Shown here: positions 42,003 to 64,000 of the stretch, in pieces
Position numbering within the stretch: the stretch's first letter is position 1
Layout of the letters: every line of letters starts with the position of its first letter
Origin: Pelotomaculum isophthalicicum JI
GTDB lineage: Bacteria; Bacillota; Desulfotomaculia; Desulfotomaculales; Pelotomaculaceae
DNA: 64,000 nucleotides
NCBI RefSeq assembly: GCF_029478095.1
Contig: NZ_JAKOAV010000003.1
Span: forward strand, 62,001-126,000
Direction: 5' to 3'
Made by a program: the position numbers and the translations under genes
Notes under the pieces: model-generated
Told to the model about the DNA's origin: nothing
Database searches by the model: none
Seen by the model: the letters and a program-made list of their open reading frames with translations, nothing else

Positions 42003-42031
42003 TTGCACAGGTAATTAATAACTTATATAAT
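42003..42031 (+). promoter_or_regulatory. Promoter upstream of the c-di-GMP riboswitch
   Basis: TTGCAC (42003-42008), exactly 17 nt of spacer and a perfect TATAAT (42026-42031). Transcription would begin just before the riboswitch aptamer. Confidence 0.75.
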
Positions 42032-42039
42032 AACAACAA

Positions 42040-42125
42040 AGCAATCTATGCCGAAAGGCATAGGGCGCAAAGCTACGGACCTAAAGGGTTATTGATTTGC
42101 CTTACGGTAGCCGGGCTGCCTTAGG
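42040..42125 (+). ncRNA. Cyclic di-GMP-I (GEMM-I) riboswitch
   Basis: The sequence follows the class I aptamer closely: a GCCGAAAGGC hairpin with the GAAA tetraloop, GGGCGCAAAGCUACGGACCUAAAG in the junction and receptor, and a second stem ending in UUACGGUAGCCGGGCUGCC. The GNRA loop and its receptor-like strand, and the conserved C in the AGCCGGG segment, are where the class I aptamer grips the ligand. It lies between a promoter and a strong terminator and precedes a surface-protein gene set, so c-di-GMP probably switches termination. Confidence 0.88.
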
Positions 42126-42138
42126 TTATATTATTATC

Positions 42139-42177
42139 GCCAAGCCTAAGTATTTAACTTGGGCTTGGCTTTATTAT
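42139..42177 (+). terminator. Riboswitch expression-platform terminator
   Basis: A 13-bp stem (GCCAAGCCTAAGT with ACTTGGGCTTGGC, one G-U pair) at 42139-42169 encloses ATTTA and is followed by TTTATTATT. It lies about 60 nt before the next start codon, in the position expected for ligand-controlled termination. Confidence 0.85.
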
Positions 42178-42235
42178 TACATATTGCGACAAATTGTTTA
42201 CAATATAGTTGTTTTGAATAACTGAGGTGTGACAT

Positions 42236-43204
42236 ATGGTTAGAATAAAACCGGTCAAAGGCATATTTATATTACTATTAGGGATTGGTTTACTTATAGG
42301 AGCATATGACACTGCCAATGCAGTTGAACTTAATGGTGTAAGTCTCGGGCCGTCGATCGTCGACAAAACCGTTAAACCAGGGGAAAGCTTCGAACAAGAA
42401 TTTAACGTGCAGAACCGGACAGGTGAAATTGTTAGAATTGAAGCATATTTACAGGATTTTCGCGAGGAAAACAACCAGTGGAATAAGGTCGAGGACATTG
42501 ATTCCAGCTGGTCGCCCATGACCTGGGCTACTGTCGTCAGCGCTCCGGAAAAACTGGATAATGGGGAACAAGGTAAAATCCGTGTAAGATTTGATGTTCC
42601 TTTAAATGCTGAAGCGGGTGAGCATGTAACTTATTTTAACAGCAAATTCATACCTATGCTCCCGGAACAAGAAGGGAAGTTGTCCGCGGCTATTACTGTG
42701 GCATCAGAAATCCGCTCGCTTGTTTACGTGAAAGTAACCGATGCCGCTGGAAGTTTAAACCTAAAGCGAGACTGGCGCGTTATTAAAGCGGATACAGGTT
42801 TCTGGAACACTGGCAAGCCTGTTTTTATTGTGGCTGTAACAAACACAGGTGATGTGCACCTGGAAGTACGGGGTAATATTGAAATTTATGACGTTCTGAG
42901 AAACCAGAGGACTCAACTCAATGTACCATTGTTTAACGTTTTGCCCGGTAAAGAGAAAAAGATTGAAATTCCTTGGGACGAAGCGCCATTCATCGGTTAT
43001 TTCCAAGGAAACATGTTGTTGACCTATAATAGTGAGAACTTTTATGAACGAAAGCTATCATTCTTAACCGGACCTCTGCTTACAATGGCTGGTACGGTGA
43101 CGATTATTGCGGCCATTATTCTTGCCGTCATTCTATATATTCGCAAGCTTCACAAACGGTTGGCGGAAAAAGGAGGACTGCAGGACAATAATCCCGGAGC
43201 ATAA
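42236..43204 (+). CDS. Exported, C-terminally anchored surface protein (DUF916/WxLIP-like)
   Basis: This 322-residue protein has a signal peptide (about 1-29), two beta-sandwich-like regions (roughly 30-165 and 175-280) and a C-terminal membrane helix (about 286-308) followed by a basic tail. The layout, and segments such as LGPSIVDKTVKPGESFEQEFNVQN and VTNTGDVHLEVRG, resemble the DUF916/DUF3324 WxL-interacting surface proteins, though the match is by pattern only. It is first behind the c-di-GMP riboswitch. The start ATG is behind GAGGTGTG. Likely a cell-surface scaffold or adhesin partner. Confidence 0.65.
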   Translation: MVRIKPVKGIFILLLGIGLLIGAYDTANAVELNGVSLGPSIVDKTVKPGESFEQEFNVQNRTGEIVRIEAYLQDFREENNQWNKVEDIDSSWSPMTWATVVSAPEKLDNGEQGKIRVRFDVPLNAEAGEHVTYFNSKFIPMLPEQEGKLSAAITVASEIRSLVYVKVTDAAGSLNLKRDWRVIKADTGFWNTGKPVFIVAVTNTGDVHLEVRGNIEIYDVLRNQRTQLNVPLFNVLPGKEKKIEIPWDEAPFIGYFQGNMLLTYNSENFYERKLSFLTGPLLTMAGTVTIIAAIILAVILYIRKLHKRLAEKGGLQDNNPGA

Positions 43205-43258
43205 TCATAATTAAATGACACCAACGGTCCGGGTACAACATGAAAGGAGGTGAATTAG

Positions 43259-43729
43259 GTGAAAAAAACCGTAGCTATTCTTTTGATGCTAGGAATACTG
43301 ATGGTTGCCGCGGGCATAGTGAATGCAGCCACCTTGGCTATAACCGCCAATGTTCAAAACTCATTGACCCTGGCGCTTAATCCAGCTTCTTTGACCTTTA
43401 ACAACGTACAGCAAGGTACTGCTACTACCCCTGAGACATTGACAGCCACCACCAGTGGAACCGGTGCCTACCAACTCCAGCTTTCAAGCACATCATTCAT
43501 CGCGTCTGGAGGAGTAACACAACCGGCTAGTGTGCTGCAGTACAGGGATCAATTGTTAGCAGGTAATTACGCAAATGCTTCAGGTACTGCTACAAACATG
43601 TTGGCTTCCGCCGGTACAGCAGTCGTAGGTGGGGATGCGAAGAACTTCGACATTCGGGTTAATTTCCCGGGTAACGCAAGTGACGGCAGTTACACTGCCA
43701 CAGTTACAATTTCCGCTGTCCCACAATAA
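43259..43729 (+). CDS. Small secreted beta-rich protein
   Basis: This 156-residue ORF starts at GTG with AAAGGAGGTG upstream. A typical signal peptide (KKTVAILLMLGILMVAAGIVNA, cleavage near 22) is followed by a Thr/Ser/Ala-rich mature chain of alternating strands (TLAITANVQNSLTLALNPAS, SDGSYTATVTISAVP). No cysteines, no anchor. It resembles the secreted beta-sandwich partners found with DUF916-type proteins, but the WxL motifs themselves are absent. Second gene behind the riboswitch; possibly a matrix or surface subunit. Confidence 0.7.
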   Translation: MKKTVAILLMLGILMVAAGIVNAATLAITANVQNSLTLALNPASLTFNNVQQGTATTPETLTATTSGTGAYQLQLSSTSFIASGGVTQPASVLQYRDQLLAGNYANASGTATNMLASAGTAVVGGDAKNFDIRVNFPGNASDGSYTATVTISAVPQ

Positions 43730-43860
43730 AAGCATTGCCATAAAACAAATAATCCAAAAAAGGCTGCCACCCAAAACGGATTTTGTCTTGACAATGCTTA
43801 AGTTTATTTTAACATGATCACAAGACGAAAACAAATCTAGAAATAAGTGGGATAGCGTAT

Positions 43861-43896
43861 GTATAGTGTCTGGGACTTTAGTCCCAGACACTATAC
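43861..43896. repeat. 17-bp perfect inverted repeat
   Basis: GTATAGTGTCTGGGACT (43861-43877) is followed by TT and its exact reverse complement (43880-43896). A second, 8-bp hairpin CTACTTGC...GCAAGTAG abuts it (43896-43924). There is no T-run on either side, so it is not an ordinary terminator. It lies about 40 nt before the ribosome site of the next gene. Confidence 0.85.
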
Positions 43897-43949
43897 TACT
43901 TGCCGCTTTGCTGGCTGCAAGTAGTGGTTGGACTAAGGGGGAAGATGCG

Positions 43950-44534
43950 TTGGGTAAATGGACGGTAAAACTCCTTTGTTTACTTCTGGGGTCGCTTTGT
44001 TTAATAATTTGCTCTGCAAACGGCGCCAACCTGGAAACTAAGGCCAATATACAGAAACAGCTTGATGTCATAATAGATGCTAATTCATTGTCATTTCCAA
44101 CGGTTAATGTTGGCAAAATTAGCGAAGAAAAAAATGTTACTGTCATGGTTAAGGGTAATGACCTATATCAGCTATATATTCAAGCAACAGTTTTAAAAGC
44201 AGATGGTTTAAAGGAGCTTCTGCCAACTGTGCTGGAGTTCAAGGAAAAGTCGGAGTCACGGTGGCTTCCTGCATCAGATGCGCTGATTCCTGTATTGACA
44301 ACGCCGGCTATGGCAAAAGCGAGTGGCGATCAAAAAGAAATAGCTTTTCGCTTGAATGTTCCACCTTCCGCTAAGCCTGGCTTGTATAGTTGTGAAGTGA
44401 ATATAATTGCCTGTGTGTACGCGGATGCAAATAAAAGTGTGAACAAAGATATTCCTGCCGGTGTAAGCGAAGATGTTCATAAGATTGACAATGAAAATGA
44501 TTCTACAAGTGTAAGCGAACATGTTTATAATTGA
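43950..44534 (+). CDS. Secreted protein of unknown function, third gene of the surface cluster
   Basis: About 194 residues. A TTG at 43950 behind AAGGGGGA is proposed, giving GKWTVKLLCLLLGSLCLIICSANGA as signal peptide; the longer open frame would run through a 17-bp inverted repeat. The mature part (LETKANIQKQLDVIIDANSLSFPTVNVGKIS) has the same strand pattern as the preceding gene's product, so the two are probably related secreted proteins. A tail rich in Lys, Asp and Val (about 165-194) is probably disordered. Confidence 0.6.
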   Translation: MGKWTVKLLCLLLGSLCLIICSANGANLETKANIQKQLDVIIDANSLSFPTVNVGKISEEKNVTVMVKGNDLYQLYIQATVLKADGLKELLPTVLEFKEKSESRWLPASDALIPVLTTPAMAKASGDQKEIAFRLNVPPSAKPGLYSCEVNIIACVYADANKSVNKDIPAGVSEDVHKIDNENDSTSVSEHVYN

Positions 44535-44556
44535 TATGTTAAGCTGTGAATAATTT

Positions 44557-46617
44557 TTATTGATGAGGGAGTGTTGACAAAAATTTCTGGACAAGCTGTG
44601 GGTCGAATTGTTCACCGGAACATTTTTTTAATTCAACCACTGCTTCACTAACAGTTGTAGCTTTTCGGTAAGGACGGTCGCTCGTCATAGCGTCATAAGC
44701 ATCGACAATTGCCAGGATGCGGCACTCCAAGGGAATTTCTTCACCTGCCAAACCCAACGGATAACCTTTACCGTTAAACCATTCGTGGTGTTTGAGAATC
44801 CAATCGGCGATAGATTTAAGATCGGGCACAGTGTTGGCGATTCGGCAACCGATTTCACAGTGCTGTTTGATTTGGAGAAATTCATCATCATTAAGGGGAC
44901 CTGGCTTAAATAGAATCCGGTCAGGTATGCCGATTTTGCCAAGGTCGTGGAATAGGGTAAAAAGACGCAAGTCGTTTAGCATATGATCGGGGATACCACA
45001 AGCAATAGCAAGCTGCACAACCATTTCCTGCATTCGTTCAGCGTGCCCCTCGGTTATAAAATCTCTGGCCTCCAGAACCTTCTTTAAGGTGTTTACAATG
45101 ATGCTGCGGGTACTCTGGGCGTGACTTAGTTTTTCCCTGTACATATTGAGGTCCGCCTCTTTAAATAGGTCGGTTGAGCTTTTTGTGATGTCGTTGCTAA
45201 CTGCAAATCCGGTTGATAAGCTTAAAGAGATTTCCGGCTGGCTCTTATTGTATTTTTTAATGGCATTTTTTAGCCGTTGACATGCGTTTTCAACTGTGGA
45301 ATTATCGGTACTTGGGAGTATAATTACAAATTCATCTCCACCAATACGGGCTACAATATCACTCTTGCGAAAACAGTTGCTGAGCAAATTTGCCGCTGCT
45401 TGAAGCAGTTTGTTGCCTGCTTCGTGTCCCATGGTGTCGTTAACTAGTTTTAACCCATCCACATCACAAACAATAATTCCCAACGGTAAATAGCTGCCGC
45501 CCTCCATACGGTGCATTTCTTCATTGAAGAATGCACGGTTATAAAGTCCGGTGAGGGAGTCGTGCAAACTCAAATATTTGTATTGCTTTTCAACCTGCTT
45601 GCGTTCGGTTATATCATAGTAATGTTCAATCCGCCCGCCTGCGTATAACCCTGAATAGATAGGCTGGCTATAATGTTCTAGCCAACGTTCCTGGTGCTGC
45701 TCAGAAGGTGAAACGTGACATTCAAAGCTTTCCACATATGTATTATCTTCATAAGTGGCCAGCAGCTTTTGGGCGAATGTTTCAGGCTGGGCAAAGAAGT
45801 ATTTTATTCTTTCATCGATCAGATTTCGCGCGCTGATCCCAAGAATTTCTTCTCTGTGCAACAAAAAAAAGCTCTCAAGAGCCCTGTTCAACCAGACAAC
45901 TTTAAAATCCCAGTCTAGAATCATTATGCCCACAGCAGAACTGTCGAGCACGTCATCGACCAGTGTGCGAAATCTTTCCTCGCTGTCTTTTAAAGCCTCT
46001 TCAGCCTGTTTGCGTGCTGTGATGTCATTAAGTACGCCGGTCAAGCCGGCAAGTTTTTCGCTTTCAAAGAGCGGGCCGCAGGAGATGCGAAAGTGGCGAT
46101 ATGCTCCGGATTTATTGATGAGCCGGCATTCATACAGTACTTCTTCTGTTTTTGCTTTTTCTAACATGGCCAATAGACCATTAGAATCGTCAGAATGCAC
46201 AAAGTTAGTGATAGATTTGCCTTTAAATTCGTCTGGTTTAAAAGCGGATAATTTTTCTATAACCGGGCTCACGTATGTTATAAAATTATATAGATCTAAA
46301 GTAAAAATGGCATCATTGATGTTTTCCACCAGCGTACGGTATCTTTCCTCAGATTTATTTAATTTCTCCTGGATTCCCGTCAATTCCAGCAACTGTAAAC
46401 GATAAAGCCGCCAAATAAGGAAAATAAACAAAAATCCAAATATCAACACCATTGTATTGCATAGAAGTTGACTATCGCATTTATCTGTATCAGGAAAAAA
46501 AACATCTATAAAGAACCGTTCCAGCAAAATGCTAATTAAGTAACATATCGTAAAACCAATAAGATAATAAAATGCTTTGGATAAATAATTGTTGTTTTTA
46601 AACAATAGTTTAATCAC
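44557..46617 (-). CDS. PAS-PAS-GGDEF-HD-GYP cyclic-di-GMP signalling protein
   Basis: This 686-residue protein is membrane-anchored by two N-terminal helices (about 13-33 and 52-70), followed by two PAS domains (about 88-205 and 212-342), a GGDEF diguanylate cyclase domain (about 345-500) and an HD-GYP phosphodiesterase domain (about 505-686). The cyclase motif GGDEF is intact at 426-430, with an RxxD inhibitory site at R417-D420. The HD pair is H557-D558 and GYP is at 618-620. So both making and breaking of c-di-GMP appear possible. It converges on a gene set controlled by a c-di-GMP riboswitch. Confidence 0.93.
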   Translation of the reverse strand: MIKLLFKNNNYLSKAFYYLIGFTICYLISILLERFFIDVFFPDTDKCDSQLLCNTMVLIFGFLFIFLIWRLYRLQLLELTGIQEKLNKSEERYRTLVENINDAIFTLDLYNFITYVSPVIEKLSAFKPDEFKGKSITNFVHSDDSNGLLAMLEKAKTEEVLYECRLINKSGAYRHFRISCGPLFESEKLAGLTGVLNDITARKQAEEALKDSEERFRTLVDDVLDSSAVGIMILDWDFKVVWLNRALESFFLLHREEILGISARNLIDERIKYFFAQPETFAQKLLATYEDNTYVESFECHVSPSEQHQERWLEHYSQPIYSGLYAGGRIEHYYDITERKQVEKQYKYLSLHDSLTGLYNRAFFNEEMHRMEGGSYLPLGIIVCDVDGLKLVNDTMGHEAGNKLLQAAANLLSNCFRKSDIVARIGGDEFVIILPSTDNSTVENACQRLKNAIKKYNKSQPEISLSLSTGFAVSNDITKSSTDLFKEADLNMYREKLSHAQSTRSIIVNTLKKVLEARDFITEGHAERMQEMVVQLAIACGIPDHMLNDLRLFTLFHDLGKIGIPDRILFKPGPLNDDEFLQIKQHCEIGCRIANTVPDLKSIADWILKHHEWFNGKGYPLGLAGEEIPLECRILAIVDAYDAMTSDRPYRKATTVSEAVVELKKCSGEQFDPQLVQKFLSTLPHQ

Positions 46618-46907: not shown

Positions 46908-47870
46908 TTAGCTGTTTTCAACTACATCCCACTTGTTGCACCGTGAACCCCAACGTCCGATAACTTTTTCTTCTTCATAAATCTCCACTATTTCACAAAC
47001 GTTTGGGCAACCATTACAATCGAAATTGCCGGTCCGGTATGGGAGACCCATTGTTTTAAATCCCTTAAAGCGAGTTTTACCGGTCATGGCAACTTCTTCC
47101 CTGGCTAGTTGGGCGGCACCGATCGCCCCCATTACCCCAAAATGCTCTGGTATTTGTATGGGTATGCCCAGCGCTTCTTCAAAGGCGGCTCTGATCCCTA
47201 CATTGGCGGCGACCCCGCCCTGAAACATTACGGGCGGCAATATTTCCTTGCCTTTGCCGACGTTATTGAGATAATTCCGGACCAGGGCCTGGCACAAGCC
47301 CTTGATGATATCCTCTATCTTATGTCCCATTTGCTGTTTGTGAATCATGTCCGATTCGGCAAAAACTGTACACCGCCCGGCTATACGGACAGGGGTTTCG
47401 GAACGAAGCGCCAGACCTCCGAACTGGTCAATCGGGATATTCAGCCGGGAAGCCTGCTGATCCAAAAACGAACCAGTGCCGGCTGCGCATACCGTATTCA
47501 TAGCGAAGTCAGTCACGATTCCATCTCTTAAAATGATGATCTTTGAATCTTGGCCGCCGATCTCAAGGACGGTTTGAACTTCGGGAATGAGCATGGATGC
47601 CGCTACAGCGTGCGCGGTTATTTCGTTTTTTATTACATCCGCCCCGACCATCACCCCGGCCAGATAACGGCCGCTCCCTGTTGTGCCGACACCCGCGATT
47701 TCTAAATCCGCAGGAAGAAAACCGGCAGTTTGTTTCAGCCCTTCCTGGATTACTTCAATGGGTCTGCCCTGGGTGCGCAGATAAAGACCGGTAATTACTG
47801 TTCCAGCCTCGTCAAGAATGACAATATTTATACTGACTGAACCGACATCAATACCCAAGTATGCCTTCAT
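46908..47870 (-). CDS. BcrA/D-BadF-type ATP-dependent activase (HgdC-like)
   Basis: This is an ASKHA-fold ATPase of the 2-hydroxyacyl-CoA dehydratase activator family. Such proteins carry one [4Fe-4S] at the dimer interface and inject electrons into a partner at the cost of ATP. The sequence has GIDVGSVSINIVI (phosphate loop), IGGQDSK, and the two cluster cysteines C128 (NTVCAAGTGSF) and C167 (AGRCTVFAESD), which match the HgdC spacing. A C-terminal CNGCPNVC motif could hold another cluster. ATG 47870 is chosen because GGAAAGGA precedes it; a TTG at 47888 is not supported. Last gene of a three-gene operon with two DUF2229-type proteins. Confidence 0.9.
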   Translation of the reverse strand: MKAYLGIDVGSVSINIVILDEAGTVITGLYLRTQGRPIEVIQEGLKQTAGFLPADLEIAGVGTTGSGRYLAGVMVGADVIKNEITAHAVAASMLIPEVQTVLEIGGQDSKIIILRDGIVTDFAMNTVCAAGTGSFLDQQASRLNIPIDQFGGLALRSETPVRIAGRCTVFAESDMIHKQQMGHKIEDIIKGLCQALVRNYLNNVGKGKEILPPVMFQGGVAANVGIRAAFEEALGIPIQIPEHFGVMGAIGAAQLAREEVAMTGKTRFKGFKTMGLPYRTGNFDCNGCPNVCEIVEIYEEEKVIGRWGSRCNKWDVVENS

Positions 47871-47888
47871 AACAATCCTTTCCGTCAA

Positions 47889-48992
47889 TCAACATGTAAG
47901 AGACTGAACTTCGCTCCGGAATTGTTTTTTTCTTCTGAGTAAATCAACAAACGCTTCAAGCCGGGTAGTCATGCCGGCTTTTCCAGTCTGTTCGTCAAGG
48001 AAGAAAGTAAGCACCGGGATGTTATAATCTTTACTCACCTTTGGCAGGATAGTACGTGCTACTATTTCCGGAATACAGGTAAATGGCGCGAGCTGGATCA
48101 TCCCATCGAAGCCGCGCTTGGCGTAAAGCACGGTGTTGCCGATAGAATCCCGGCCATGTCCGCCAATTAGTTCAGGGAGGTAAGGAGAAGCGGCTTCTTT
48201 AACTGTAATGCCCTCTGTTGTTTCGTTCCAGGAGTTATCCCTGGTCCAGCCTGTCAGGAACATCGACCTTTCTACTTCAACTCCCAGGTTTCCGAGAGTC
48301 TCTTCGATTTCCAGGTTGCTGGCCGGTTCTAAAAGGACGTAGATTTCCCCGATGATGCCAACTTTTAAAACATTACGGTTGGGATCTTGAGGAATGCTGT
48401 TAAGCGCTTCTATCGCGGTGGATTCGGCCTCAATAATTTGTTCAGTGGTATAGGCCTGATCAATCCAGTCCAGGACTTTCCGGTAGACTCTGGTAGTGTT
48501 GCCGCGGCTGATTTCCCTTGGCCGCACGATGTGGCTCAGTTTTTCAAGGTTATCCAGGGCTTGAAGCTTACGCCATGCCCGCTTTACATGGGCGATAATA
48601 CCTCTTATGGAGACTCTTGCCTTGTTCAGCGCACGAACACTTTTATAAAACTTAAAGGGATGCAGGCGGGGCGGTTCAATAACGATCATTTTAATTTTGT
48701 GCCCTAAATCATTGAGTATTTTATGGTGCAGCATGGCGTATTCCCCGGCGCGGCATGGACCGACGCCGCCCGTGGTGACAATAGTGTCGATTCCCATCTC
48801 TATAGTTTCCAGGTAGGTGCCCATCAGGATTTTTAGCGGAAAACAGGCAAATTCGGGAGCATACCTTATTCCCAGGTCCAGAGTGCGTTTACTGGGACGG
48901 GGAGGAACTACCACCTCGTTTCCCAAATCCTCTAAAAACATTTTAAAAGTGCGGTAGGATTCTCCCATGCGCGGGAAAGTTATTTTAGGCAT
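47889..48992 (-). CDS. DUF2229-type / activase-related protein, 2-hydroxyacyl-CoA dehydratase-like (second copy)
   Basis: This 367-residue cytoplasmic protein belongs to the group of activase-associated 2-hydroxyglutaryl-CoA dehydratase-like proteins. Conserved pieces include the APEFACFPLKILMGTYLE segment, GVGPCRAGEYA, PFTCIPEIVART and the PVLTFFLDEQTGKAGMTTRLEAFVD end that is nearly repeated in the next gene. Cysteines at these three sites could bind a [4Fe-4S] as in the dehydratase. It overlaps the upstream gene by 13 nt and ends immediately before the activase gene, so the three are one operon. Substrate unknown. Confidence 0.8.
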   Translation of the reverse strand: MPKITFPRMGESYRTFKMFLEDLGNEVVVPPRPSKRTLDLGIRYAPEFACFPLKILMGTYLETIEMGIDTIVTTGGVGPCRAGEYAMLHHKILNDLGHKIKMIVIEPPRLHPFKFYKSVRALNKARVSIRGIIAHVKRAWRKLQALDNLEKLSHIVRPREISRGNTTRVYRKVLDWIDQAYTTEQIIEAESTAIEALNSIPQDPNRNVLKVGIIGEIYVLLEPASNLEIEETLGNLGVEVERSMFLTGWTRDNSWNETTEGITVKEAASPYLPELIGGHGRDSIGNTVLYAKRGFDGMIQLAPFTCIPEIVARTILPKVSKDYNIPVLTFFLDEQTGKAGMTTRLEAFVDLLRRKKQFRSEVQSLTC

Positions 48993-49972
48993 GCCAACGC
49001 CTCCTTCCGACGCTTCACCATATCGACAAAGGCTTCAAGACGCGTAGACATACCGGCTTCGCCAGTATGTTCGTCGATCATCAAAGTCATAAAAGGTATG
49101 TTCCGATGCTTCTTCGCTTCCAGTTCAATAAACTTGTTTAACAGTGAGTCCGGCCCGCACCCGAAGGCGGTGAGGTGCAGCAAACCGTCTATGTGTCCCC
49201 GTTTAAATAAGAAATGGGCGGCTTTTAAGGCCCGGTCGCTAAAAGTCCAGAAAAGCCGTTTCGGTAAGCCGCAATTTTTCTGACAGGCCAATGATAACGG
49301 GGAAATGTTCTCAGCGGTGATCGTACCTACTCCCAAACGCCGGAGTTTATCCAAAAGATTTACGCTGATAAAACTGTCATAAATGTTGTAAGGATAACCA
49401 ATAACCGCAAACTTCAGACTTGTGGCAGGAGGTTTTGGCAAAGAACCCGGCTTATGCAATAAGTTCATTGCTTCATGTGGATGCCAGCCTTGTCGTAATA
49501 GCTTGTTATATCTTTTCAAGGTGCCGCATGCTTTTCTGTAAGCATGAGAGGATAAATACTTGCTGGCGCCGAATATGTCGCCAATTTCCATGTAAGCCTT
49601 GAGCATGGCAAAACGTCCCTGGCGTGTGTCCATGCGAACATCAATGACCGGTGGCAAGCCGGTTACTGAATGCTTGATCATGTCTGGCAAGCCAAGGAAT
49701 TTTGGACAATAAATTGTTTTGCGGTTGATGCATACTACTCTAGGTATGAAGAGGTAGTCAACGCGATCTTTAAGCCCCATGACGTGGCCGAAAAAAAGCT
49801 TTACCGGTACGCAAGCGTCTGCAAGCGCCTCACGAACACCATTATTCAGTATTTCTTTAGTCGTCTTTCCAGAGGTAACTACCTGAACGCCGATCTCGTT
49901 AAAGAAGGCTTGCCACAACGGGTAATAGATATAATATAATAAAGCGTTGGGTATGCCGACTTTAACAGCCAA
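48980..49972 (-). CDS. DUF2229-type / activase-related protein (first copy)
   Basis: This 330-residue paralogue of the next gene product starts with KVGIPNALLYYIYYPLWQAFFNEIG and has Cys-containing sites in ALADACVPVKLFFGH and LTAFGCGPDSLLN, and the end segment PFMTLMIDEHTGEAGMSTRLEAFVDM. The two proteins look like the two halves of a heterodimer that could receive electrons from the activase. First gene of the operon; the 250-nt gap upstream (49973-50221) is a divergent intergenic region facing nudF with no other feature seen. Confidence 0.8.
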   Translation of the reverse strand: MAVKVGIPNALLYYIYYPLWQAFFNEIGVQVVTSGKTTKEILNNGVREALADACVPVKLFFGHVMGLKDRVDYLFIPRVVCINRKTIYCPKFLGLPDMIKHSVTGLPPVIDVRMDTRQGRFAMLKAYMEIGDIFGASKYLSSHAYRKACGTLKRYNKLLRQGWHPHEAMNLLHKPGSLPKPPATSLKFAVIGYPYNIYDSFISVNLLDKLRRLGVGTITAENISPLSLACQKNCGLPKRLFWTFSDRALKAAHFLFKRGHIDGLLHLTAFGCGPDSLLNKFIELEAKKHRNIPFMTLMIDEHTGEAGMSTRLEAFVDMVKRRKEALACLK

Positions 49973-61684: not shown

Positions 61685-64000
61685 ATGGTCAACAGTTTTG
61701 TCATATGTGATTTGGAAACTACGGGACTGAGTCCTTTTGCGGATAAAATAATAGAAATTGGTTTAGTGCGGTTGGAAGATGGGCAAATATCAGGAAAGTT
61801 TCATGCCTTAGTCAACCCCAACCAACCACTCAACATAAAAATAAAAAGGTTGACCGGTCTTAACGACCAGGATTTAGCCGGTGCGCCCGTATTGTCCGAA
61901 GTGCTGCCGGAAGCGCTGGACTTCATTCAAGACAGCGCAATAGCAGGGCATAATATTGATTTCGACCTTGGATTTCTGGCCGCCGCGCGAGGCGAGCCGT
62001 TACGCAACCCATCTTATGATACTCTGGAACTAGCCCGTCTTGTTGTGCCGGACTCAAATAGCTTTCGGTTAGGTGCCCTATGCCGGTTTTTGGATATCGA
62101 ATTTGAGAACGGCCATAGGGCGTTGGATGACGCTATTGCCACAGCGCACCTATTAACCGTATTGATCCAAAAGTTTCGGGAGATTGATATAAATGTTCTG
62201 ACTCAATTGACTAAACTCCTGGCTGAGGCACGTTCAAATTGGCAAGGTTTTGCTGGTGAAATGGTTAAGGAACTGCTGAAAGTGTTCCCAGACAAGAAAA
62301 TATCAGCCAGCCCTTATTGGCGCAAAGATGACAAGGTTAGTGAAGAAACGAACCATCGGGACAAGCAAAATGAGCAGGAAAGACATTTGCTCGACCCGGT
62401 TTACCTTGCCTCGCTTGTCGGAAAAGAAGGACCGCTGTTAAAAGCTATTTCCGGTTATGAATACCGCCCTCAGCAGGAAGCAATGGTCGGAGAGGTTGCC
62501 AGGGCTTTTAACGAAGAGAAATATCTGATGCTTGAGGCGGGAACCGGGGTAGGCAAGTCGATAGCTTACTTGATTCCGGCGGTGTTATGGAGCCTGAAGA
62601 ACAGGGAAAGGGTGCTGGTGGCCACTAATACCATCAATCTCCAGGAGCAACTCTGGCTAAAGGACATTCCGGTACTGGCCGGAGTGATAAATCAGCGGTT
62701 TCGCGCGTCTTTGGCTAAAGGACGTCAGAATTATATTTGCCTGCGCCGCTGGTTTAATGCTTTAAACAGTTTGCATCAGCCGGATGAAGCGGCGTTTTTC
62801 GCCAGGGTTCTGACCTGGTTGGCATCAACAAAATCCGGGGACAGGACTGAACTGAACACCACTCCCGGTGAGGGGGATTACTGGCTTACAATCTGTGGAG
62901 ATGCGGAAAGCTGTCTTGGAACGAGATGCCGCTACCGGATGGACTGTTTTATCAATAAAGCGAGAAAAGCGGTTGAAGAAGCAGACTTGATTATCACAAA
63001 CCATTCCTTGCTGTTTTTAGATATCAGAAATGAAAACCGTGTGCTACCGGCTTACGGACCGCTAATCATAGATGAGGCCCATCACCTGGAAGATTCGGCC
63101 ACCAACCACCTTGGCAGGCAAGTTACCCAAAGTATGTTGAACCGCTGGCTTAGCATGACAGGAAAAGCATTGAATAAGCTAGCGGAAATCATCCCACCGG
63201 GTGATCGTGAGCATTGGGAACAAGCGCTAAGAACAGCGTTACAAATCAGGTTGGAAACGGTTGAGAACGCACGTCTCTTCTTCCAGACACTTGGTGAACT
63301 TGCCGCGAACAAATTGAACGGTAGTAACATCAATAATAAATTCTACCGCTCAACTTTACGGTTGCCTGTTAATGATAATGGATATAGGACGGCAATATCT
63401 ATAGGTGGGGAGCTAATAAACCTATTACGCGCACTATCGGAAACCGTTCAGAAGTTATCGGAAATCATGGAGCTGTGGTCAATATCCGCAGAAGTGTGGA
63501 CTGAACAGGCTCGCGACCTATTGCAGATTAGCCAATTGGGTTTAGCATTGACTGATGATTTATTTTTTATTTTAGAAAGCGCTGATGAAAAGTTTGTATA
63601 TTGGGCGGATATTGAGTTTTGGGCCGGGGGTCTGTTAAAACACTGCAGCCTGTCGGCAGCTCCGATAAATGTCGGTGAAATGTTATACGAGCTTTTTTAT
63701 AAGAATAAAAAAACAGTGGTTTTTACTTCAGCGACTCTTTCAGTGAACGGAACCTTCGATCATTTTATTGAGCGGGTAGGATTGAATTACCTTCCAGCAG
63801 GGCGGCTGGCTGAGGCTCATTTTGATTCGCCGTTTATTTATGAACGCCAAGCGCTTCTTTGTATTAACCGTGACCTGCCTGTTCCGGGAGAAGTGGCATC
63901 TGATCTATATCTAGAGGAACTTGGAAATGTTATTGCCAAACTAGTTAGTGTAACTCATGGAAAAACTCTTGTACTCTTTACTTCGCACATGATCCTTCGT
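61685..64000 (+). CDS. dinG: DinG-type helicase with N-terminal exonuclease domain (5' part)
   Basis: The frame is open to the last base (772 codons). The N-terminal DEDDh exonuclease domain (about 1-175) starts FVICDLETTGLSP (D9, E11) with HNIDFDLGFLAA and HRALDDA. The XPD/DinG-like helicase has Walker A EAGTGVGKS at about 283-291, four candidate Fe-S cysteines (YICLRRW, ICGDAESCLGTRCRYRMDC) and a DEAH box in LIIDEAHHLED near 463. The end reads GKTLVLFTSHMILR, the next helicase motif. The ATG is behind TAGGAG. It is the Gram-positive DinG form (exonuclease plus helicase), for DNA repair; the C-terminus lies outside the window. Confidence 0.93.
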   Translation, partial: MVNSFVICDLETTGLSPFADKIIEIGLVRLEDGQISGKFHALVNPNQPLNIKIKRLTGLNDQDLAGAPVLSEVLPEALDFIQDSAIAGHNIDFDLGFLAAARGEPLRNPSYDTLELARLVVPDSNSFRLGALCRFLDIEFENGHRALDDAIATAHLLTVLIQKFREIDINVLTQLTKLLAEARSNWQGFAGEMVKELLKVFPDKKISASPYWRKDDKVSEETNHRDKQNEQERHLLDPVYLASLVGKEGPLLKAISGYEYRPQQEAMVGEVARAFNEEKYLMLEAGTGVGKSIAYLIPAVLWSLKNRERVLVATNTINLQEQLWLKDIPVLAGVINQRFRASLAKGRQNYICLRRWFNALNSLHQPDEAAFFARVLTWLASTKSGDRTELNTTPGEGDYWLTICGDAESCLGTRCRYRMDCFINKARKAVEEADLIITNHSLLFLDIRNENRVLPAYGPLIIDEAHHLEDSATNHLGRQVTQSMLNRWLSMTGKALNKLAEIIPPGDREHWEQALRTALQIRLETVENARLFFQTLGELAANKLNGSNINNKFYRSTLRLPVNDNGYRTAISIGGELINLLRALSETVQKLSEIMELWSISAEVWTEQARDLLQISQLGLALTDDLFFILESADEKFVYWADIEFWAGGLLKHCSLSAAPINVGEMLYELFYKNKKTVVFTSATLSVNGTFDHFIERVGLNYLPAGRLAEAHFDSPFIYERQALLCINRDLPVPGEVASDLYLEELGNVIAKLVSVTHGKTLVLFTSHMILR

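Follow-up and report, generated by a model that had tools for sequence, protein, structure and literature searches.

The segment between positions 42,003 and 46,617 of a 64,000-nt stretch of the Pelotomaculum isophthalicicum JI genome (hereafter, the window; positions 62,001 to 126,000 of contig NZ_JAKOAV010000003.1, assembly GCF_029478095.1) carries a putative riboswitch for cyclic di-guanosine monophosphate (c-di-GMP), three open reading frames for predicted surface proteins (ORF1, ORF2 and ORF3) and a convergent gene for a GGDEF/HD-GYP protein. The locus raises the question of what signal governs the surface proteins, in which direction it acts, and whether the adjacent enzyme is its dedicated source. 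We propose that the leader of the surface-protein operon carries a class-I c-di-GMP riboswitch, which would choose between termination and read-through. Riboswitch control of the operon is well supported by comparison of related loci, and the explanation as a whole, comprising an ON direction, c-di-GMP as the ligand, ORF1 as holder of ORF2 and ORF3, and an enzyme that is not dedicated to the locus, seems to us probable. The features on which the argument draws are listed here.

42003..42031, + strand: promoter, TTGCAC (42003-42008), 17-nt spacer, TATAAT (42026-42031); read directly in the sequence.
42030..42123, + strand: c-di-GMP-I aptamer, RF01051 (cmscan 62.7 bits, E 6.9e-10).
42040, + strand: A at the position of Vc2 G20, the ligand-selectivity base (RF01051 alignment).
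42119..42120, + strand: C92, which pairs with the ligand, and C93, with which the A strand begins; from the RF01051 alignment.
42120..42150, + strand: putative antiterminator (A:T helix), 42120-42127 pairing with 42143-42150; from ortholog comparison.
42139..42179, + strand: terminator, a 13-bp stem (42139-42169) with a U-rich tail; orthologs show compensatory changes at three pairs.
42236..43204, + strand: ORF1, 322 aa; signal peptide, two immunoglobulin (Ig)-like domains and a C-terminal transmembrane (TM) helix, WxLIP/PapD-like fold according to a structure model.
43259..43729, + strand: ORF2, 156 aa; secreted FimA-like beta-sandwich according to a structure model, with a strong ribosome site, AAAGGAGGTGA.
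43950..44534, + strand: ORF3, secreted and related to ORF2 (30% identity); three of six cassettes have it, and in a fourth its frame is broken.
44557..46617, - strand: TM-PAS-PAS-GGDEF-HD-GYP protein, 686 aa, convergent; not conserved with the cassette.

The first-pass annotation had read the leader as a promoter with a 17-nt spacer, a class I aptamer and a 13-bp terminator, and all three are present. The aptamer, checked with Infernal, scores well over the RF01051 gathering score of 35 bits and is the sole Rfam match that cmscan returned within the window, as well as one of 12 c-di-GMP-I riboswitches in this 3.6-Mb genome. A promoter scanner places the promoter at the same site, as TGCACA-N16-TATAAT, and a TTGC..-N17-TATAAT arrangement likewise precedes the P. 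terephthalicicum and BRH_c4b orthologs. Since position 20 of the aptamer is the ninth base after the end of the -10 box, transcription should start at about 42038, immediately 5' of the aptamer core. The pocket bases A18 (42038), A47 (the first A of GCAAAG) and C92 (42119), numbered after PMC6274999 and PMC9262584, are kept in the RF01051 alignment. In its fold, in its pocket bases except that at position 20, and in its transcription-terminator platform, the element is like the c-di-GMP-I riboswitches Vc2, Cd1 and Bc2, the last of which governs a collagen adhesin (PMC4933901); it differs from them in its A20, in the lack of an upstream P1 strand and in an antiterminator that begins at C93 and spares C92. 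Judged by its sequence, the riboswitch is of an ordinary kind; what is unusual is one pocket base and the platform.

This predicted arrangement of promoter, aptamer, A:T helix and competing terminator is kept, together with ORF1 and ORF2, in six genomes, namely those of two Pelotomaculum, two Peptococcaceae metagenome-assembled genomes (MAGs) and two Syntrophomonas. Homologs of ORF1 with 60-70% identity were found in P. terephthalicicum, in the Peptococcaceae MAGs BRH_c4b and HOT.CON.130 and in two Syntrophomonas MAGs, and in all five an aptamer (60.9-72.3 bits) lies directly upstream and is followed by ORF1 and ORF2. Retention of ORF3 is less uniform: it is found in the window, P. terephthalicicum and BRH_c4b, is frame-broken in HOT.CON.130 and is absent from Syntrophomonas. 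The distribution is patchy (7 of the 113 genomes of the class), and this, combined with high similarity across families, suggests horizontal spread.

Beyond these close relatives, the ORF1 profile finds matches in 40 of 398 sampled Bacillota genomes. When 29 of these loci were scanned for RNA families, nine proved to lie behind c-di-GMP-II riboswitches and two behind c-di-GMP-I riboswitches. The class-II operons follow the order riboswitch, ORF2-like, ORF1-like, ORF2-like gene, and profile comparison confirms their homology (E 8e-14 for ORF2, E 2.5e-25 for ORF1). Seven of the nine c-di-GMP-II loci belong to a single family (f38), so that independent recruitments of this class have probably been few. 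Taken with the conservation of the leader and ORF1-ORF2 in six genomes, the presence of similar distant operons behind riboswitches of both classes gives good support to the earlier claim that a riboswitch controls the surface cluster. The situation recalls the c-di-GMP-II switches of Clostridioides difficile adhesins and pili, in which a c-di-GMP riboswitch also precedes surface-protein genes and whose class is the one used by the distant relatives of the operon; the element in the window, in contrast, is of class I, and the surface proteins are unrelated. In a separate observation, eight operons (L146-L149, L151-L153 and L160) have a c-di-GMP-II riboswitch before them and a c-di-GMP-I-GGC riboswitch farther downstream, two classes thus flanking one operon. 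The riboswitch itself is ordinary; the interesting part of the locus is this little-known and repeatedly c-di-GMP-controlled operon family. Here c-di-GMP riboswitches of two unrelated classes are tied to operons for anchored chaperone-like and pilin-like surface proteins that form one widespread family in the Bacillota, and its hosts include Pelotomaculum and Syntrophomonas, syntrophic bacteria about whose surfaces little is known.

The identity of the ligand is put in some doubt by position 20. An A at this position is the hallmark and selectivity base of class-I riboswitches selective for cyclic AMP-GMP (cGAMP, or c-AMP-GMP), and the ligand could hence differ from c-di-GMP (PMC6456294, PMC6274999); Rfam membership does not need G20, and A20 therefore weakens the ligand claim and not the family assignment. 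Under the alternative, the aptamer would be a cGAMP riboswitch of the GEMM-Ib type occurring outside Geobacter, and this fits the A20 found both here and in the sister species P. terephthalicicum, the finding that A20G alone makes a c-di-GMP switch out of a cGAMP switch of Geobacter (PMC6456294), and the binding of cGAMP by a G20A mutant (PMC6274999, PMC7288161). However, the other four orthologs of the same cassette carry G20, and a second orthologous aptamer pair (L001/L085) likewise interchanges G and A; overall, A20 is seen in 6 of 33 aptamers sampled from four genomes. Moreover, the G11A change in Cd1, equivalent to G20A, barely affects c-di-GMP binding (PMC9262584), and related operons are governed by class-II c-di-GMP switches. 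Across the aligned GGDEF domains of this genome and of P. terephthalicicum, no Ser or Thr of the Hypr type was found at the residue equivalent to PleD Asp344; poorly aligned fragments aside, only Asp or Asn occurs there. In the 686-aa protein itself, the Asp344 of canonical cyclases is replaced by Asn (GHEAGN), and three well-aligned paralogs share this Asn. With GEMM-Ib of Geobacter the element shares A20, but no Hypr GGDEF was found in its own genome or the sister genome, it has orthologs with G20 and it resides in a Bacillota host. Because orthologs swap A and G and no GGDEF protein here has the Hypr serine, c-di-GMP is most likely the ligand, with a selectivity perhaps relaxed by A20, and the occurrence of two unrelated riboswitch classes for one ligand before the same operon type also argues for c-di-GMP as the signal. 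We regard a cGAMP riboswitch as quite improbable, and in view of the ortholog interchange and the absence of the Hypr serine have downgraded cGAMP as the default meaning of A20. The natural G20/A20 swap among orthologs of one regulatory element lends itself directly to testing the evolution of ligand choice within the class. A search for SMODS domains yielded one sub-threshold match only, located outside the window. Also outside the window, a 539-aa protein (L138; G000:C3:12482-12919) combines an apparent nucleotide-cyclase domain with a weak SMODS-like nucleotidyltransferase domain.

With c-di-GMP as the likelier ligand, the direction of the switch can be considered from the two helices that, in six genomes, compete for the same T strand. 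One is the terminator stem, with a covariation score of 0.272 against 0.181 for shuffled alignments (2 of 500 shuffles). The other is the A:T helix, in which seven of eight pairs are standard in all six orthologs (42 of 42), compared with at most 57% for controls with slid partners, and which is compatible with aptamer P3, so that both can form together. None of the six orthologs has an upstream strand able to pair with C93 in the canonical register, P1 thus being missing. The first pair of the A:T helix is formed by C93 itself, and C92, which contacts the ligand, faces a U in every one of the six orthologs and should therefore remain free. The missing upstream P1 strand and a helix that starts exactly at C93, sparing C92, lead us to lean towards an ON switch, in which c-di-GMP would raise the production of ORF1, ORF2 and ORF3. 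Ligand binding would then clamp the C93-G150 pair (42120 with 42150 in the window), which is the first pair that the terminator arm must displace.

Several points weigh against this direction. Free-energy folding of the full transcript prefers the terminator whatever the upstream state, the antiterminator varies by wobble only and so provides no formal covariation, and the known class-I Cd1 switch, which likewise has a separate terminator, is an OFF switch (PMC9262584); the ON direction is inferred from structure logic. The main rival is an OFF switch resembling that of C. difficile Cd1, in which the ligand would block the A:T helix, the terminator would form and high c-di-GMP would silence the surface genes. 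It is consistent with a terminator (42139-42169) that is clear of the aptamer, as in Cd1, where both coexist (PMC9262584), and with an A:T helix whose overlap is confined to the aptamer's 3' edge. Yet the Cd1 antiterminator invades C92 (PMC9262584), whereas the one described here stops at C93 in six orthologs, with an invariant U facing C92, and without a 5' P1 strand the ligand has no obvious route to exclude the A:T helix. Furthermore, related operons carry c-di-GMP-II, and the C. difficile adhesins and pili controlled by this class rise with c-di-GMP (PMC11477304). We consequently hold an OFF switch to be rather unlikely and retain the ON direction. A more specific form of the ON mechanism would have the antiterminator helix be the aptamer's own P1, permuted so that the downstream T strand replaces the 5' strand from C93 onwards; ligand binding and antitermination would then be one helix, in a lineage that has switched base 20 between G and A. 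This proposal we put forward as a doubtful one, and a general link between a missing P1 and a downstream hairpin starting at C93 was suggestive at most over 35 aptamers.

The products of the operon also agree with the earlier description of three exported or anchored beta-rich proteins, since ORF1, ORF2 and ORF3 each have a signal-like hydrophobic segment at the N-terminus and ORF1 carries, in addition, a TM helix at the C-terminus. The model of ORF1 (predicted local distance difference test score, pLDDT, 79) comprises two Ig-like domains and a long C-terminal helix. Its best match in the PDB is the WxLIP of Enterococcus faecium (Foldseek E 1e-10; 9i1y_B and 9i25_C, Z 12.3, 223-225 residues aligned), at a root-mean-square deviation of ~7 that is probably due to the joint alignment of two domains; PapD-type chaperones come next. 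Like WxLIP (DUF916-DUF3324-TM), ORF1 is predicted to have a signal peptide, two Ig-like domains, a C-terminal TM helix and small secreted operon partners. Unlike that system, ORF1 does not reach Pfam-level membership, with no match to WxLIP_PGBD (PF06030) in the window and one among eight family members at E 0.0069, and its partners lack the Trp-x-Leu motif, ORF2 having no Trp and ORF3, read from TTG 43950, only WT and WLP. Known WxL clusters are nearly all in the Lactobacillales and Bacillales (PMC10599100). For ORF2 (pLDDT 83), the model matches FimA (2m5g, Z 10.2; 6erj, Z 10.1; Foldseek E 5e-5 to 6e-4), and no Pfam fimbrial match was obtained. A parallel with the PapD/FimA pair is therefore apparent in the fold matches of ORF1 to the chaperones and of ORF2 to the pilin, but ORF1 is membrane-anchored, a Pfam pilin match is lacking and the likeness is one of predicted folds; sequence searches of the PDB with ORF1 and ORF2 found nothing. 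For ORF3 the likelier start is TTG 43950, which lies behind a GGGGGA ribosome site and agrees with the starts of its orthologs; the protein would then have 194 aa. In the P. terephthalicicum ortholog of ORF1 (L112/L050), the frame of the signal peptide is broken at a T run, for which either an assembly error or phase variation is possible.

These models depict ORF1 as a TM-anchored two-Ig protein with a WxLIP/PapD-like predicted fold, and ORF2 and ORF3 as small secreted proteins of the beta-sandwich type. ORF1 may hold or assemble ORF2 and ORF3 at the envelope by strand complementation, and the result would be an adhesive or aggregative layer. A low-confidence loop in the first domain of the ORF1 model (144-151) is flanked by two strands, and a WxLIP hairpin at or near the matching site becomes ordered upon WxL binding (PMC10599100); strand donation is hence plausible. 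A part in syntrophic aggregation is suggested by the hosts alone, Pelotomaculum and Syntrophomonas.

As to the adjacent gene, domain and motif searches confirmed the PAS-PAS-GGDEF-HD-GYP protein described beforehand, with matches to PAS, GGDEF (E 7e-37) and HD_5 (E 1e-38) and with RKSD, GGDEF, HDLGKIG and HHEWFNGKGYP intact. The first-pass annotation had further postulated a local circuit, in which the c-di-GMP of this protein would mainly serve the adjacent riboswitch, and this proposal is not supported by the comparison of cassettes. In its favor are the intact catalytic motifs and the nearness of c-di-GMP-I riboswitches to GGDEF genes across this genome, where 5 of 12 lie within 4 kb of one against 0.48 expected (P ~6e-5); as such nearness is common genome-wide, proximity reflects a general tendency and does not prove private signalling. 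Against it, none of the five orthologous cassettes has the gene, and the genome encodes about 20 GGDEF genes; in HOT.CON.130 an unrelated PAS-GGDEF gene lies ~1.1 kb upstream of the riboswitch. At the syntenic site of P. terephthalicicum, where the cassette persists, the gene is eroded to a remnant: 64 nt that match the gene at 81% identity and 77 nt that match its upstream flank at 79% (59 and 68 bits; 50 shuffles gave no more than 29). The rest of the P. terephthalicicum genome contains no ortholog, the best match reaching 47%. This remnant at the syntenic site indicates that the ancestor of the genus already had the gene and that P. terephthalicicum lost it while retaining the riboswitch and surface genes. 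Synteny and the remnant rule out the enzyme as a conserved cassette partner, and we judge a local circuit very improbable; the protein would instead be one of about 20 GGDEF proteins that feed a general c-di-GMP pool. Elsewhere in the genome, a riboswitch lies directly before an HD-GYP gene and a degenerate-GGDEF (AGDEF) gene (L006, G000:C12:36320-38188; ortholog L104), an arrangement that is kept in the sister species and in which feedback is possible.

Two further RNA elements follow ORF2.

43728..43799, + strand: conserved structured RNA of 72 nt in the 3' untranslated region of ORF2; found in six genomes and not in Rfam.
43861..43896, + strand: 16-bp hairpin with no U tract, between ORF2 and ORF3; from the sequence.

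The first of these, 72-73 nt long, has a closing stem and the core AGGcuGCyACCyAAArCGGA in all six cassettes, with compensatory change at seven pairs (1 of 500 shuffles). No Rfam family matches the ORF2-ORF3 intergenic element at any meaningful score, and the reading as a known RNA was rejected. Its covariance model found no further copy in the 113 genomes of the class, the element being single-copy in those that have it, and gave one weak match of 30.8 bits, in an unrelated context, in the phylum sample. Obvious candidate roles are stabilisation of the 3' end of the ORF1-ORF2 message and control of ORF3. The 16-bp hairpin is retained in relatives despite sequence change, and in Syntrophomonas it turns into a true terminator, which there follows the 72-nt element.

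Finally, the window encodes, at 46908-49972, a BadF/BcrA-type activase and two DUF2229/HGD-D-like proteins, a set that resembles a hydroxyacyl-CoA dehydratase activator. In addition, several riboswitch promoters (L002, L003, L004, L080, L087 and L093) have in common a (G)TCCTATT(G/T)AC motif over the -35 region, often within a GGAC..GTCC palindrome, which might possibly represent a common operator.

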